Shown here piece by piece: positions 8,157 to 49,500 of a stretch of DNA of 64,000 nt (positions are counted from its first letter, which is position 1; each line of letters starts with the position of its first letter). This stretch comes from Sulfurimonas hongkongensis. Lineage in GTDB: Bacteria; Campylobacterota; Campylobacteria; Campylobacterales; Sulfurimonadaceae. Made by a program: the position numbers and the translations under genes. The stretch covers positions 186,001 to 250,000 of the forward strand of contig NZ_AUPZ01000013.1 in assembly GCF_000445475.1 (NCBI RefSeq), given 5' to 3'. The notes below the pieces were generated by a model that ran no database searches, was not told the origin of the DNA, and saw only the letters and a list, made by a program, of their open reading frames with translations.

Positions 8157-10644
8157 TTTCTAAGCTGCCTATTCGGCAGTTTACATATGCTATGGATAGA
8201 GTGCGAATTGTGAAATTTTCTAAGCTGCCTATTCGGCAGTTTACATCCTCTCCCTGCGTTACCATTACATACTCAATTTCTAAGCTGCCTATTCGGCAGT
8301 TTACGAAGATTGTCTTTCTTTTGAAGTATCTCTATATTTCTAAGCTGCCTATTCGGCAGTTTACTTGGAGAAGAACTGAGTCGTTGTGAGGAAATTTTTC
8401 TAAGCTGCCTATTCGGCAGTTTACTTGCTGCAACTTCAACATCTGCTGAATATTCATTTCTAAGCTGCCTATTCGGCAGTTTACATTGTCACGCTAGCAA
8501 ACGGCGAAGCGATAGATTTCTAAGCTGCCTATTCGGCAGTTTACGGAAACTGGAGCAGTGCTTTTGAAAAGCTAGTTTTCTAAGCTGCCTATTCGGCAGT
8601 TTACTATTAAGCTCGTATGTCTTGTATGTAGAAAAATTTCTAAGCTGCCTATTCGGCAGTTTACAAACTTATGACAAAGAGACAAATGCATACTCATTTC
8701 TAAGCTGCCTATTCGGCAGTTTACTTAATGAGGGTATCAAAGGCTCAGATATTATTTTTCTAAGCTGCCTATTCGGCAGTTTACGATGTTGCTACACCAG
8801 CTATTCAGTTTGTAATTTTCTAAGCTGCCTATTCGGCAGTTTACTGATTTAACAGCTACATAAACTTCATCATATTTTTCTAAGCTGCCTATTCGGCAGT
8901 TTACGGGTAGTTGAGACATACCCACTATCAAAATAATTTCTAAGCTGCCTATTCGGCAGTTTACTCCCATTCCAACACGACAAGCCCGGCTGGCCATTTC
9001 TAAGCTGCCTATTCGGCAGTTTACTGTAGAGAAAAATATTCAGAATACTTAATATATTTCTAAGCTGCCTATTCGGCAGTTTACTAACTTCGTTTGAATT
9101 TTGTCCTGAAATTAAATTTCTAAGCTGCCTATTCGGCAGTTTACTGTATCATCATCGTTGACTCTTGTGGCTGTTGTTTCTAAGCTGCCTATTCGGCAGT
9201 TTACTAAAGAACTTGCCACGAACTGCACCAAGGATGTTTCTAAGCTGCCTATTCGGCAGTTTACTTGAAGATTCTCAAAATGAAGCCTTATATAATTTTC
9301 TAAGCTGCCTATTCGGCAGTTTACCATGGTCTTTGGCTTGTGCTATTGTTTGGTTTTTTCTAAGCTGCCTATTCGGCAGTTTACAAGATTATGAATACAT
9401 CTTCGTAGATACACCATTTCTAAGCTGCCTATTCGGCAGTTTACTTGATAAAAACATATCCGCAGATATTGTAGTATTTCTAAGCTGCCTATTCGGCAGT
9501 TTACGTAGGCATCGACTTTAAAAGTAGCGGTTTTGTTTTCTAAGCTGCCTATTCGGCAGTTTACTCATCGTCTAGTTTTTCCAACAGTTCACTATATTTC
9601 TAAGCTGCCTATTCGGCAGTTTACCTACACTAAAATCACACCTAAAAGAGTTTGTATTTCTAAGCTGCCTATTCGGCAGTTTACAAATGCAATAATGTTT
9701 AAAATGAATTGCAGGTTTTCTAAGCTGCCTATTCGGCAGTTTACAACTTAGGAGTTTCTGGCAACAACGCAGTAATTTTCTAAGCTGCCTATTCGGCAGT
9801 TTACCCATAGTAACCCCTTATTTTATCTTTGAGAATTTTCTAAGCTGCCTATTCGGCAGTTTACTGTAGTTACTGCTACGGCAGGTAAATTTGCGGTTTC
9901 TAAGCTGCCTATTCGGCAGTTTACTAAAAAATTACGGTCAAGGAGGTTTATTTGTTTTTCTAAGCTGCCTATTCGGCAGTTTACAAACACTATGAGTATA
10001 AGAGAGCTTTATGAGTTTTCTAAGCTGCCTATTCGGCAGTTTACAAAGCTCTAATTAGCGAAATGTGTGAGGTGTATTTCTAAGCTGCCTATTCGGCAGT
10101 TTACTAGTTACTTACACCAAATGGGTATTCCTGAATTTTCTAAGCTGCCTATTCGGCAGTTTACCCCATTATATCTCTTAGTCTAACACTCCGAGTTTTC
10201 TAAGCTGCCTATTCGGCAGTTTACATGGAATATCCGCTATCACTAATTGAGCTTTTTTTCTAAGCTGCCTATTCGGCAGTTTACATACTATCTTATGGGA
10301 TGAAGCACACAAGAGTTTTCTAAGCTGCCTATTCGGCAGTTTACTAGGACTGATTCTGCGGAGGTTGGTATTAAGCTTTCTAAGCTGCCTATTCGGCAGT
10401 TTACAAGTCGTCAATGACGCTCTGATTAGGCACCACTTTCTAAGCTGCCTATTCGGCAGTTTACCAGCCAACCATTTACGGACATATCTGAATTGATTTC
10501 TAAGCTGCCTATTCGGCAGTTTACTTAGCCGCGAACCTGTTGACATGTGAGTTAGTTTTCTAAGCTGCCTATTCGGCAGTTTACAGCGTCTTGGAGGGTG
10601 TTAAAAAGCGACTAAGTTTCTAAGCTGCCTATTCGGCAGTTTAC
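8157..10644 (-). CRISPR. Type I-F CRISPR array, 42 repeats and 41 spacers
   Basis: A 28-bp repeat recurs with an exact 60-bp period from 8157 to 10644; I see no variant base in any copy, and every spacer is 32 bp. Read on the minus strand, the repeat begins GTAAACTGCC, contains the stem CTGCC/GGCAG around loop GAATA, and ends CTTAGAAA, the eight-base crRNA 5' handle left by Cas6f. The leader and the cas genes lie to the right, so transcription runs leftward and the newest spacer is at 10585-10616. All 41 spacers differ from one another. Even the trailer-end repeat at 8157-8184 is intact. Confidence 0.99.
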
Positions 10645-42047: not shown

Positions 42048-42311
42048 TTATTTGTCTCCTTGAATCCGAACAAGTCCAGATTCAATTCCTCTCACTAAAG
42101 CTACGCCTATCGGCGAGAGTCTTCTTTTTTTTCTGTCTCCTTGAATCCGAACAAGTCCAGATTCAATTCCTCTCACTAAAGCTACGCCTATCGGCGAGAG
42201 TCTTCTTTTTTTTCTGTCTCCTTGAATCCGAACAAGTCCAGATTCAATTCCTCTCACTAAAGACTTATCTTTTTTTAAAAAAGTTACTCCTAGCGGCAAG
42301 AATAATTTCAT
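42048..42311 (-). CDS. Small repetitive ORF coupled to lpxC (87 aa)
   Basis: The frame starts at ATG 42311 with AGGA six bases upstream, 20 bases after the M23 peptidase stop. It ends with TAA at 42048-42050, one base before the lpxC ATG. The N-terminal 11 residues are [11 protein letters not shown]; the rest is a 27-residue unit ([14 protein letters not shown] plus [12 protein letters not shown]) repeated by the DNA tandem repeat. No family is known. Good ribosome-binding site and tight spacing argue for translation; the repetitive, basic content argues for a leader peptide or an accident. Confidence 0.4.
42053..42262. repeat. 81-bp tandem repeat (2.6 exact copies) upstream of lpxC
   Basis: TGTCTCC recurs at 42053, 42134 and 42215, giving an 81-bp period; copies 1 and 2 are identical by eye and copy 3 runs 48 bp before diverging, with a degenerate continuation to about 42300. 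On the minus strand each copy folds two hairpins. One is a 12-bp stem with loop TT (42060-42085 in the copy next to lpxC), with only G-U wobbles as irregularities. The other is CGCC-TATC-GGCG inside CTCTC/GAGAG. The period is a multiple of three and keeps a reading frame open. Confidence 0.95.
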
Positions 42312-44381: not shown

Positions 44382-45431
44382 CTATTTCTTATTCATTTTA
44401 TAAACAAAGGCTAAAACTTCAGCTACTGCTGCAAAAAGTTCATCTGGTATCTGTTTGTCTATCTCTACATCTTTATACAAAGCCCTAGCTAATGGAGGAT
44501 TTTGATATACATGCACACCATTTTCTCTCGCTATTTTTTTGATTTGTTGGGCGATATTGTCCATGCCTTTTGCTACTACAAAAGGTGCTCTTTTTGACTC
44601 TTCATATTTTAATGCCACTGCATAGTGAGTTGGGTTTGTAATGACCACATCAGCGTTTGGAACTTCTGCCATCATTCTTTTTCTTGATGCTTCCATCTGG
44701 ATTTGACGAATTTTTCCCTTTACCATTGGATCTCCATCCATGTTTTTCATCTCATCTTTAACCTCTTGTTTACTCATCTTTAGTCCATCAAAGTACTGTT
44801 TTCTTACAATAATAATATCAATAATTGCGAAAACAAAAACAATAAAAAGCATAACAAAAGCTAAAATTATCGCCTTATCTCTAAGCCATGAGAGTTGGTC
44901 GCCTAAACCAAAAAGTGCTACGGTTGGGAGCTCTAATATAAAGTAAAAGAAAAACACAAAGCCGATTCCCAAAGTGGTAAAAGATTTAAAAGTGACCTTA
45001 ATTCCCTCTATAAATTTTTTTATGGATATCAGATTTTTCATTCCCTTGATGGGATCTAGCTTACTAAATTTTGGCTCGATAGCTTGGAGAGTAAACAAAA
45101 AACCAAACTGAGACAAAGCAGCTACAACCCCAGCTAAAGCAACTGAGAGGGCAATTGGCATAATAATTAAGAGAAACTCTTTTATCGTAACTATGGCAAT
45201 ATCAAGCATAAAAAGCTTGTCTAGTGGAGTTCCTACAAGTGAGAAGTAGTATTTAAAAAGGTTTAAAACATGAGTAGCCATATAAGGAAAAAGCATCAAA
45301 AAAGCTAATATAGCTACAAAAAGAGTTACAACCCCAGAAGCATCCTGAGACTTTGGAACATTCCCCTCTTTCCTAGCATCCTCAATCTTTTTGGAGGTGG
45401 GTTCTTCGGTTTTTTCTGCATCATCTGCCAT
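44382..45431 (-). CDS. flhB: Flagellar export apparatus protein FlhB
   Basis: Inner-membrane substrate-specificity switch of the flagellar type III export gate. Four membrane segments (about residues 34-56, 80-110, 145-170, 187-210) precede the cytoplasmic autocleavage domain, in which NPTH is at 266-269. The N-terminus ADDAEKTEEPTSKKIEDAR is typical. The start and ribosome-binding site (GGAGAG) are duplicated 138 bp upstream, and a short frame from that copy ends at the flhB ATG. Confidence 0.96.
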   Translation of the reverse strand: MADDAEKTEEPTSKKIEDARKEGNVPKSQDASGVVTLFVAILAFLMLFPYMATHVLNLFKYYFSLVGTPLDKLFMLDIAIVTIKEFLLIIMPIALSVALAGVVAALSQFGFLFTLQAIEPKFSKLDPIKGMKNLISIKKFIEGIKVTFKSFTTLGIGFVFFFYFILELPTVALFGLGDQLSWLRDKAIILAFVMLFIVFVFAIIDIIIVRKQYFDGLKMSKQEVKDEMKNMDGDPMVKGKIRQIQMEASRKRMMAEVPNADVVITNPTHYAVALKYEESKRAPFVVAKGMDNIAQQIKKIARENGVHVYQNPPLARALYKDVEIDKQIPDELFAAVAEVLAFVYKMNKK

Positions 45432-45569
45432 TTAACTCTCCTGAAGAACATACAAAAAACCTATATTAGGTTTTTCTTTAGTAGCATAGCGCTTAGCGTA
45501 AAAAAAGGGACTTGTTCCTTTTTTGTTCAAATGGTAGCAATCTTCGGTTTTTTCTGCATCATCTGCCAT
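45432..45569 (-). CDS. 45-aa upstream ORF made by the flhB 5' duplication
   Basis: From the duplicated ATG at 45569 the frame MADDAEKTED continues into the spacer (CYHLNKKGTSPFFYAKRY) and ends in TAA at 45432-45434, directly next to the flhB ATG at 45429-45431. It carries the same GGAGAG site as flhB. Its first nine residues equal those of FlhB. Whether the peptide matters, or only its translation, cannot be told; it may also be a meaningless by-product. Confidence 0.35.
   Translation of the reverse strand: MADDAEKTEDCYHLNKKGTSPFFYAKRYATKEKPNIGFLYVLQES
45455..45475. terminator. Second copy of the terminator-like hairpin, upstream of flhB
   Basis: Arms AAAAACCTA (45455-45463) and TAGGTTTTT (45467-45475), loop TAT. 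It lies 24 bases upstream of the flhB ATG, inside the 3' part of the upstream ORF, where folding and translation would exclude one another. Confidence 0.5.
45501..45524. terminator. AT-flanked hairpin in the flhB duplication spacer
   Basis: AAAAAAGGGAC-TT-GTTCCTTTTTT forms an 11-bp stem with one G-U pair and A/T runs on both sides, the form of a bidirectional intrinsic terminator. Confidence 0.5.
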
Positions 45570-45592
45570 TTAACTCTCCTAGAAGAACACAC

Positions 45593-45615
45593 AAAAAACC
45601 TATATTAGGTTTTTT
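45593..45615. terminator. Hairpin terminator downstream of nadC
   Basis: Perfect 10-bp arms AAAAAACCTA (45593-45602) and TAGGTTTTTT (45606-45615) with a three-base loop lie nine bases past the nadC stop. On the minus strand the stem ends in a U-run, fitting intrinsic termination, so flhB would need its own promoter. Confidence 0.65.
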
Positions 45616-45624
45616 GTAAAATTC

Positions 45625-46440
45625 TTAATCAATCTTCATGGATAAGTCTATCCAATTAGCTTGATGAATCAACGCACCGCTACTTATGGCATCAACTCCA
45701 CTTTTTGCATAAGATTCTATAGTTTCAAGTGAAATATTCCCACTCGCTTCTAGTAAAATATGTGAAAAATTCTCATCTCTAAAAGCTACTACCCTAGCTA
45801 TTTTATCAGGTGACATATTATCACACATAACTATATCAGCACCGCTCTCCATCGCCTCTTTTGCCATCTCATAAGTCTCAGCTTCAACTTCTATGTTTGC
45901 AGTAAAAGGTATTTTTTTTCTTGCTTTGTTAATGTAGTCTTTTAGGTTTTTGATAGTTTTTAGGTGAGTATCTTTTATCATGAGCGAGTCATCTAAACCC
46001 ATACGATGATTCACCGCTCCGCCGATTCTTGTAGCATACTTTTCAAAAACTCTTAGATGCGGTCTAGTCTTTCTAGTATCAAGCAGTTTTACACCATATG
46101 GTTTTACTATATCTGCGTATTTTCTTGTAAGTGTAGCTATGGAGCTTGCGTGTAATAAGATATTTAAAAGTGTTCTCTCTATACTTAAAATTGTGTGCGA
46201 GTCTCCACTTAGTGTGGCTATAATATCACCACTTACAAAACTTTGCGAATCACACTTATGCCAGATAATCTCAAAGTTCTTTATCTCGCTTAGTGCGTTT
46301 AGGTAGATCTCTCCAGCTACAACTCCATCACTCTTAGCTATTATTTTAGCCTTTGCACCTACGCTTGGCTCTACTAATGCATACAAATCTCCACGACCTA
46401 TATCTTCTCTTAGCGTGGCTGATACAAACTCTTTTATCAT
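45625..46440 (-). CDS. nadC: Nicotinate-nucleotide pyrophosphorylase (carboxylating)
   Basis: Quinolinate phosphoribosyltransferase of NAD synthesis. Recognisable motifs are LREDIGRGDL, LLDTRKTRPHLR, IGGAVNHRMGL and EVEAETYEMAKEA with the active-site Arg/Lys/His set. I place the start at 46440 (MIKEFVSA), whose ATG overlaps the nadA stop as ATGA; an in-frame ATG 36 bases earlier would lie inside nadA. Length 272 aa is normal. Confidence 0.94.
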   Translation of the reverse strand: MIKEFVSATLREDIGRGDLYALVEPSVGAKAKIIAKSDGVVAGEIYLNALSEIKNFEIIWHKCDSQSFVSGDIIATLSGDSHTILSIERTLLNILLHASSIATLTRKYADIVKPYGVKLLDTRKTRPHLRVFEKYATRIGGAVNHRMGLDDSLMIKDTHLKTIKNLKDYINKARKKIPFTANIEVEAETYEMAKEAMESGADIVMCDNMSPDKIARVVAFRDENFSHILLEASGNISLETIESYAKSGVDAISSGALIHQANWIDLSMKID

Positions 46441-47435
46441 AGTGCCAACATTCTCTCTAGCGCTACCTTTGCCCATTTTTGAACTTTTGGATCTATCTCT
46501 ATCTCATTTAAAGGTTCGCCATCATCTATGGACTTTAGTGTTAGATAAACATCTTCTAAGGTTGTCTCATTCATAGTTGGACACTCTGGTTTTGTAGATG
46601 AGAGAACATATGTGTTTTTCTTCCTTAGACGGTTTACAAGGTTAAACTCCGTCCCAACTGCAACTTTTTGCTCTAGTGGCAACTCTTTTATATATTTTAT
46701 TAGTTGAGAAGTTGAACCTACAAAATCTGCAGCATTACAAATAGCTGGATCACATTCAGGATGCACAGCTATTAAAATACCTGGATATTTCTTACGGTAA
46801 AATTCAATATCTTCTACACTAAAGAGTTGATGGACTGAGCAAAAACCGTTATAACAGATAATATCTACATCATTTGGGTCTTTACCATCCCCTATTACGC
46901 ATGATTTTAGCCCCATCTGATTTGCTATGTTTTGGCCTAAACATCTATCTGGAACAAAAAGAATTTTTTTACCCTCTCCCATCGCTGTTGTGATGATTGT
47001 TTTAGCATTTGAGCTTGTACAAACCATACCACCCATCTCGCCTACTTTTGCTTTTACATCAGCATTTGAATTTATATAAGTAATAGGCATAATATTTTCT
47101 TTTTTTATCCCATGATCTTCTAAAAACTTAACTGAATCATCATAGTACATGGAGTCAATCATTCTAGCCATAGCACAGCAAGCTGCCTTTGGCATCACAA
47201 CCCTTTTATGTGGAGAGAGAATTTTTACACTTTGTCCCATAAAGCCAACACCACTAAAGACAACAAACTCAGCATCATCATCTCTTGTTTTTATAGCAAG
47301 CTCTAATGAATCCCCTGTGATATCTGCCATCTCAAAAACTTCATCTCTTTGGTAAAAATGTGCAACAAGAGTTACACTTAATTTCTTTTTTAACTCAATA
47401 ATTTTTTGCTTTAATTCTTCATTTGTAAACTTCAA
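46437..47435 (-). CDS. nadA: Quinolinate synthase NadA
   Basis: [4Fe-4S] enzyme that condenses iminoaspartate and DHAP into quinolinate, the substrate of NadC encoded next. Conserved AHFYQRDEV, PKAACCAMARMI, CTSSNA, PDRCLGQN, VHPECDP and TEFNLVNRL are present, with three cluster cysteines among them. The start is probably TTG at about 47435 (LKFTNEELK), preceded by AGGGAAG; an ATG at 47513 would run across the divergent plsY promoter. Confidence 0.93.
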   Translation of the reverse strand: MKFTNEELKQKIIELKKKLSVTLVAHFYQRDEVFEMADITGDSLELAIKTRDDDAEFVVFSGVGFMGQSVKILSPHKRVVMPKAACCAMARMIDSMYYDDSVKFLEDHGIKKENIMPITYINSNADVKAKVGEMGGMVCTSSNAKTIITTAMGEGKKILFVPDRCLGQNIANQMGLKSCVIGDGKDPNDVDIICYNGFCSVHQLFSVEDIEFYRKKYPGILIAVHPECDPAICNAADFVGSTSQLIKYIKELPLEQKVAVGTEFNLVNRLRKKNTYVLSSTKPECPTMNETTLEDVYLTLKSIDDGEPLNEIEIDPKVQKWAKVALERMLAL

Positions 47436-49271: not shown

Positions 49272-49277
49272 TTTAAA

Positions 49278-49500
49278 CACTAAAATGAGCAAAGCCCATT
49301 TTAGTGGCAGGGACAAGATTGTCCCTACAACCCCCTAAAGCTACAAAAAAACGAGTTTTTTGAGATTTTTACATTAAAGATTGAGCAAAGCCCATTTTAG
49401 TGGCAGGGACAAGATTGTCCCCACAACCCCCTTAGCATGGAGTATGCCATTGGTTAGCATACCTAAAAGCTACAAAAAAACGAGTTTTTTGAGATAAATC
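49278..49500. repeat. Imperfect direct repeat full of hairpins between regulator and kinase
   Basis: Copy A (49286-49366) and copy B (49382-49495) are nearly identical. Copy B carries 32 extra bases (49432-49463) containing the CATTGGTTA-loop hairpin, plus one extra A. Each copy has GGGACAA-GA-TTGTCCC and AAAAAAC-GA-GTTTTTT palindromes. The first copy is preceded by CACTAAAATG (49278-49287) pairing with CATTTTAGTG (49297-49306), seven bases after the hsrA stop and possibly its terminator. I see no coding frame in the gap 49272-49603. Confidence 0.85.
49442..49462. repeat. Hairpin with conserved loop CATTGGTTA (copy 2)
   Basis: GTATGC (49442-49447), loop CATTGGTTA, GCATAC (49457-49462): a perfect 6-bp stem. 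TTAGCAT occurs at 49432-49438 and again at 49454-49460, the second overlapping loop and stem. Confidence 0.6.

Follow-up and report, generated by a model that had tools for sequence, protein, structure and literature searches.

The 5′ end of flhB in Sulfurimonas hongkongensis is duplicated around an inserted copy of a dispersed three-hairpin element. Homologous insertions are found in 26 species, sister species have empty sites at the same position, the two copies of the gene start are homogenized, the insert turns over and the short reading frame that crosses it is open more often than expected by chance. We consider it probable that a REP/BOX-like repeat was captured within the 5′ end of flhB, that the duplicated start makes it tolerable and that initiation at flhB is coupled to the short frame. 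A flagellar gene can survive a folded repeat within its start, and the presence of such inserts at one spot in flhB in at least 26 related species, with rapid turnover, constitutes an unusual natural experiment on the tolerance of repeats and mini-genes before working genes.

Organization of the flhB start

The analysed stretch of 64 000 nucleotides (hereafter the window; contig C13 of genome G000) contains flhB on the minus strand (44382–45431; 349 aa), identified from the list of open reading frames and from 80 FlhB loci of Sulfurimonadaceae and related bacteria with identities of 66–95%. The nearest named relative in flhB is Sulfurimonas sp. STCSWMC_194, with an FlhB that is 95% identical. 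The reading frame directly upstream (45625–46476, minus strand), which we take from its sequence to be nadC (quinolinate phosphoribosyltransferase), is the same neighbour in relatives; 10 nt separate its end from the first copy of the block described below.

A 74-bp block at the flhB start occurs twice, at 45403–45475 and 45541–45614, with a 65-bp spacer between the copies. The resulting direct repeats, at a spacing of 138/139, agree at 40 of 40 nt between 45403–45442 and 45541–45580 and at 97% of 33 nt between 45443–45475 and 45582–45614, a similarity far above chance that bears out the 5′ duplication of flhB proposed in an earlier note on this DNA. The duplicated block comprises a hairpin, a ribosome-binding leader, an ATG and nine codons. 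The repeat search places the P1 hairpin, the leader TTCTTCAGGAG, the true ATG and the first flhB codons in the flhB-proximal copy (45403–45475, minus strand), and an extra ATG in the upstream copy (45541–45614, minus strand; 97–100% identical). P1 (AAAACCTA/TAGGTTTT), recognized from the repeats and from folding, lies at 45454–45475 on the minus strand, with its second copy at 45593–45614. A Shine–Dalgarno-like AGGAG precedes the true flhB ATG at 45438–45442 (minus strand) and recurs at 45576–45580. The frame that opens at the extra ATG (MADDAEKTEDCYHLNKKGTSPFFYAKRYATKEKPNIGFLYVLQES; 45432–45569, minus strand) is 45 codons long and its TAA (45434–45432) adjoins the flhB ATG (45431–45429); this feature of the earlier description is confirmed by the list of reading frames, and counterparts are present in 26 species.

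The description of the locus as a duplication of the promoter-proximal part of flhB is correct in that this part is duplicated, but it is an incomplete account, as the duplication comes with the insertion of a dispersed element. A ribosome-binding leader forms part of the duplicated block, and the sequence between the copies is not unique but belongs to a dispersed repeat. A chance repeat is ruled out by the 40-bp exact match and by the same structure in 26 species, and an assembly artefact by its presence in other assemblies and in the single-contig genomes G115 and G133. A recent simple tandem duplication in the window strain is likewise ruled out, because the sister locus L028 and others carry the same insert; only the copies have been re-homogenized.

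A dispersed three-hairpin element

The spacer (45476–45540, plus strand) is one copy of a dispersed palindromic element, the core of which matches a covariance model at 45474–45532 on the plus strand with a score of 81.4 bits. The element is in reverse orientation at this gene, with flhB transcribed from the other strand. A search of the window genome shows that the spacer recurs elsewhere as DNA matches, in some places as tandem arrays. Aligned copies share the order P1, CTTTAGT, P2 with a conserved loop, AGCG, and P3, in which the tip is constant and the stem varies. In the window, P2 (AGC-ATAGC-GCT) occupies 45483–45493 on the plus strand, with a stem that covaries in the alignment of copies and flhB inserts, and P3 occupies 45501–45524 on the plus strand (stem 45501–45510/45515–45524, loop CTTG), as supported by the fold and by covariation in the family and in the flhB inserts. 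Overall, 94.5% of cells are paired and 23 double changes are found versus 6.5 after shuffling (0/500), in an alignment that includes five sequences read by eye from flhB inserts, two of them near-identical.

The motif GGGACTTGTTCC occurs 18 times in the window genome and its reversed control not at all. The covariance model gives 63 matches in this genome at E ≤ 0.1, the copies being read as stretches around the matches. Tandem arrays are located at G000:C10:69349–69849, C3:23050–23461 and C9:15798–16216, with units of 111, 87 and 90 bp, respectively, and about five copies each. The element is present in 123 of 135 Sulfurimonas genomes and in 16 of the 70 genera sampled across Campylobacterales. 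Rfam searches with the element gave no significant match (none above the gathering score) and we found no description of it in Sulfurimonas in the literature. The interest of the family lies in its wide occurrence in Campylobacterales without a significant Rfam match and in its position close ahead of many housekeeping genes.

The genomic context was read from the strongest matches, which favour flhB copies because some of these went into the model. Outside flhB (L187–L266), a co-oriented gene usually comes next, with a median start 47 nt downstream. For the non-flhB copies of Sulfurimonas with both neighbours called, the arrangements are +E+ (34), −E+ (3), −E− (10) and +E− (2). The genes that follow include dnaK, a nifU-like gene, ribH, flgD, flgG, rpmF and glmS, and the element recurs before orthologues of the first four. 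In other genera of Campylobacterales (L267–L286) the element takes the form CTGCC..GGCTAGCTTTAGTGCCACAGCGGCTAGCGTAG-stem, often 5–30 nt before a start codon. The co-oriented gene at a median of 47 nt, the closely following starts in other genera and the recurrence before orthologous genes would all fit a family of cis-regulatory RNA leaders, not a mobile repeat, with flhB as one target. We regard this as unlikely: the targets are unrelated housekeeping genes, some copies lie between convergent genes, others form tandem arrays of two to five units and the orientation at flhB is the opposite one.

GTAG-tagged REPs are short multi-copy intergenic palindromes, stem-loops of 20–40 bp with a GTAG tetranucleotide at one end, clusters of which are reiterated in tandem with flanking DNA (PMC3733652, which also mentions Rickettsia palindromic elements, RPEs). 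The present element resembles them in being made of stem-loops in many copies, as the 63 genomic matches and the covarying P3 stem show. The foot of P3 is mixed: GTAG is found there in 19 of 20 copies from other genera and in 13 of 19 flhB copies, but the window copy has GTAA and many Sulfurimonas copies have GAAG. The element differs from GTAG-tagged REPs in its three linked hairpins in place of one, in the lack of a nearby REP-associated tyrosine transposase and in its placement within a gene start together with a duplication. Mobilization by a REP-associated transposase is not supported, as none is near the window copy, the 67.7 kb examined around 21 Y1_Tnp loci contained no element and the element-rich genomes G005, G014 and G020 are without Y1_Tnp. 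The element is consequently filed as REP/BOX-like and not as a member, owing to the absence of transposase association.

Pneumococcal BOX elements are modular multi-hairpin repeats that are co-transcribed with genes and can give rise to expressed open frames at the ends of operons (PMC3049150). The present element differs from BOX in sequence and in host phylum, and many species have its flhB insert at a single conserved site together with a duplicated start. RPEs are palindromic repeats within coding regions that are tolerated in translation. The element at flhB is likewise a palindromic repeat inside a coding region but, unlike in the RPE case, FlhB does not become longer: with the start duplicated, the element falls in a separate upstream frame and flhB is complete downstream.

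The insert across species

Of 80 FlhB loci, which are the best matches (79 loci from named genomes and that of the window) and not a random sample, 16 carry the window-type insert. The addition of further genomes of the genus raises the number of distinct carriers to 26, counted as species, most of the relatives being metagenome assemblies. The breakpoint is constant in all 26, after ACnGAAGA at flhB codons 8–10. A TTCTTCTAGGAG-like leader is present in every insert and a CGTTCAAA edge in most, and both are absent from the dispersed copies of the element. The unduplicated form, which the earlier note had proposed to seek in related genomes, is found in sister species, whose sites are cleanly empty; the empty/filled pairs L030/L029, L060/L061, L032/L065 and L081/L087 are otherwise collinear. 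The empty site of L030 (..AAAGTTATAATCC-ATGG..) equals the upstream junction of L029 and L039; in these two and in L042 the first copy retains the native nadC–flhB junction without the leader. Many carriers are without the P1 hairpin ahead of the first copy. In the single-contig genome G116 (L189) the element and leader directly follow nadC, with no upstream flhB start. In locus L092, a different insert of ∼170 bp occupies precisely the same position of flhB, and here too start and leader are duplicated.

On a quick flhB tree, the presence of the insert calls for a minimum of 14 changes and shows no clustering (198 of 500 shuffles are as low). Distances between inserts correlate with those between flhB genes (Mantel r = 0.57, p = 0.0018) and the mean divergences are 0.28 and 0.27, respectively. 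Since the insert distances track those of flhB and are of about the same size, the insert is probably old, mostly inherited and often lost, and the correlation speaks for common descent followed by many losses rather than for independent insertions. Some lateral transfer may have taken place alongside inheritance.

Repeated insertion of the element at a hot spot in flhB, with the local start duplicated anew each time, would account for the scattered distribution on the tree, for the match between the first copy of every lineage and its own flhB and for the distinct insert that L092 has at this position. This course of events seems improbable, given the leader common to 26 of 26 inserts and the edge common to most, neither of which occurs in the dispersed copies, the agreement of insert with flhB distances and the identical variant bases in the first copies of L028, L039 and L048.

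Over its first 29 nt, the upstream copy agrees better with the flhB of its own genome than with those of other genomes, with none of 10 000 permutations as high; judged from these sequences, the relation of the first copy to its own flhB is one of concerted evolution. In the upstream copy, L028, L039 and L048 have the variant bases CAAATAACAG in common. The two window copies are identical at this site, and hence fully homogenized, whereas the sister L028 retains the variant, which places the homogenization after the split from L028. Flanking direct repeats were detected at 19 of 78 element loci (∼2% in shuffled pairs) and 18 of these 19 are at flhB, so that duplication of a gene edge is ruled out as a general property of the element and the start duplication is special to flhB. 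In the window genome, a long flank repeat is found at flhB only. Flank repeats were noticed by eye in other genomes at L126 (33 bp, before metG) and L132 (24 bp).

The upstream frame and related loci

In 18 of the 26 carriers, the stop of the upstream frame lies between −10 and +12 nt relative to the flhB ATG. If the consensus is mutated at random, 5.9 frames are expected to stay open, and with column resampling 9.5 ± 2.1 (maximum of 17 in 1000 runs), both estimates ignoring shared ancestry. The frame is broken in the remaining eight, one having only five codons. Pairwise differences in the core block are spread evenly over the three codon positions (150/128/131), without a bias that would reveal selection on the peptide, and there is thus no sign that the peptide matters; an open frame above expectation indicates that translation up to the flhB start probably does. 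The pattern suggests that ribosome passage, not the peptide, is maintained. The frame is not indispensable, because it is broken in eight carriers and the upstream start is absent from G116. Translational coupling of the upstream frame to flhB is plausible on this basis.

The inserts could instead be neutral selfish debris on which nothing depends, with the frame open because the inserts are young or constrained by their hairpins. Rapid turnover (14 changes), clean empty sites, the absence of codon-position bias and the eight broken frames among 26 are compatible with such passengers. An insert divergence of 0.28 compared with 0.27 for flhB indicates, however, that the inserts are not young, the 18 open frames exceed the maximum of 17 in 1000 column resamplings, and leader and stems are conserved; we consider neutrality rather unlikely.

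Under the preferred explanation, capture with frame-coupled initiation, a palindromic element of three hairpins would have entered the flhB of an ancestor of Sulfurimonas species, behind codon 9. A new ribosome-binding leader and a duplicate of the initial ∼30 nt of flhB would have become part of the insert, thereby re-creating a complete flhB downstream, and the original start would now open a short frame that passes through the element and stops at the new start. Normally nadC lies close to flhB and a Shine–Dalgarno sequence is slight or absent, so that flhB probably depends on ribosomes leaving nadC. An insert would break this supply, and the duplicated start, with a frame leading to the new start, would keep ribosomes arriving. 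The short frame would be translated and its terminating ribosomes would feed or permit initiation at flhB, termination–reinitiation presumably replacing the nadC–flhB juxtaposition. Recombination between the direct repeats could remove the insert and restore the empty site exactly, and the copies may be kept alike by gene conversion or by repeated contraction and expansion. Several observations run against this proposal: the even codon positions, the frame broken in 8 of 26 carriers, the missing first copy in G116 and the leaderless first copies of L029, L039 and L042; the insertion route to the ∼30-bp duplication and the leader is also unaccounted for. Owing to the rapid turnover at one spot, matched sister species with and without the upstream frame are available and offer a ready comparison for asking if expression depends on short upstream frames and hairpins.

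A further possibility, to which we give little credence, is that the family is an undescribed structured leader, Campylobacterales-wide, that serves as a portable 5′ cassette with its own ribosome-binding site. At flhB and lpxC the cassette would include a short frame that ends at the downstream start, and at flhB recombination between the duplicated starts would turn the cassette on and off in the course of evolution, tuning flagellar export by translational coupling.

The earlier note had likened the locus to an attenuator, in which translation of the upstream frame decides whether terminator-like hairpins, P1 among them, halt transcription before flhB. The hairpins exist, but only the one on the nadC side scores as terminator-like. 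This sole match on the flhB strand (45590–45618; 0.3 expected) lies beside nadC, has three G–C pairs and precedes the upstream start; none was scored between the upstream frame and the flhB start. The P1-type hairpins AAAAAACCTAATATAGGTTTTTT of the two copies have folding energies of −11.3 and −8.1 kcal/mol, the weaker, unflagged one being just ahead of flhB. The spacer hairpin pairs better on the other strand (−7.8 versus −6.0 kcal/mol on the flhB strand), and the consensus fold of the flhB inserts is also somewhat better there (−14.26 versus −13.0), the latter owing in part to a conserved G–T pair. A scan of 45350–45700 for sigma-70-like promoters found none. In favour of attenuation, the hairpins lie within the presumed transcribed leader, the single terminator-like match exceeds the 0.3 expected, the two P1 copies can pair together in the predicted fold and the frame is open above chance. 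The stems are, however, A–T rich and weak, many carriers have no P1 ahead of the first copy, 8 of 26 carriers no longer have the frame, and the closed genome G116 has no duplicated start yet keeps element and leader. Attenuation is therefore unsupported and we consider it very unlikely; from their predicted folds, the hairpins do not look like a conserved flhB attenuator. The locus shares with leader-peptide attenuators a short upstream frame, hairpins and a downstream gene start; it differs in that no conserved regulatory codons and no conserved strong terminator were seen and in that the frame is dispensable in about a third of carriers.

Other repeats occur in the window. Upstream of lpxC (42048–42311), a related element is repeated 2.6 times in frame with an 81-bp unit, forming an 87-codon frame with its TAA one base before the lpxC ATG; similar frames ending in ..KGDK-stop before lpxC are present in L028 (109 codons), L038 and L067. 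At 49277–49500, in the gap that separates a response regulator from a histidine kinase, another hairpin element (AGCAAAGCCCATTTTAGTGGCAGGGACAAGATTGTCCC) is present in two partly repeated copies, one of which contains a further small hairpin, ATGGAGTATGCCATTGGTTAGCATACC, that is also found within the flhB insert of L067. A CRISPR array of type CRISPR-DR4 with a 60-bp period extends over 8157–10644.
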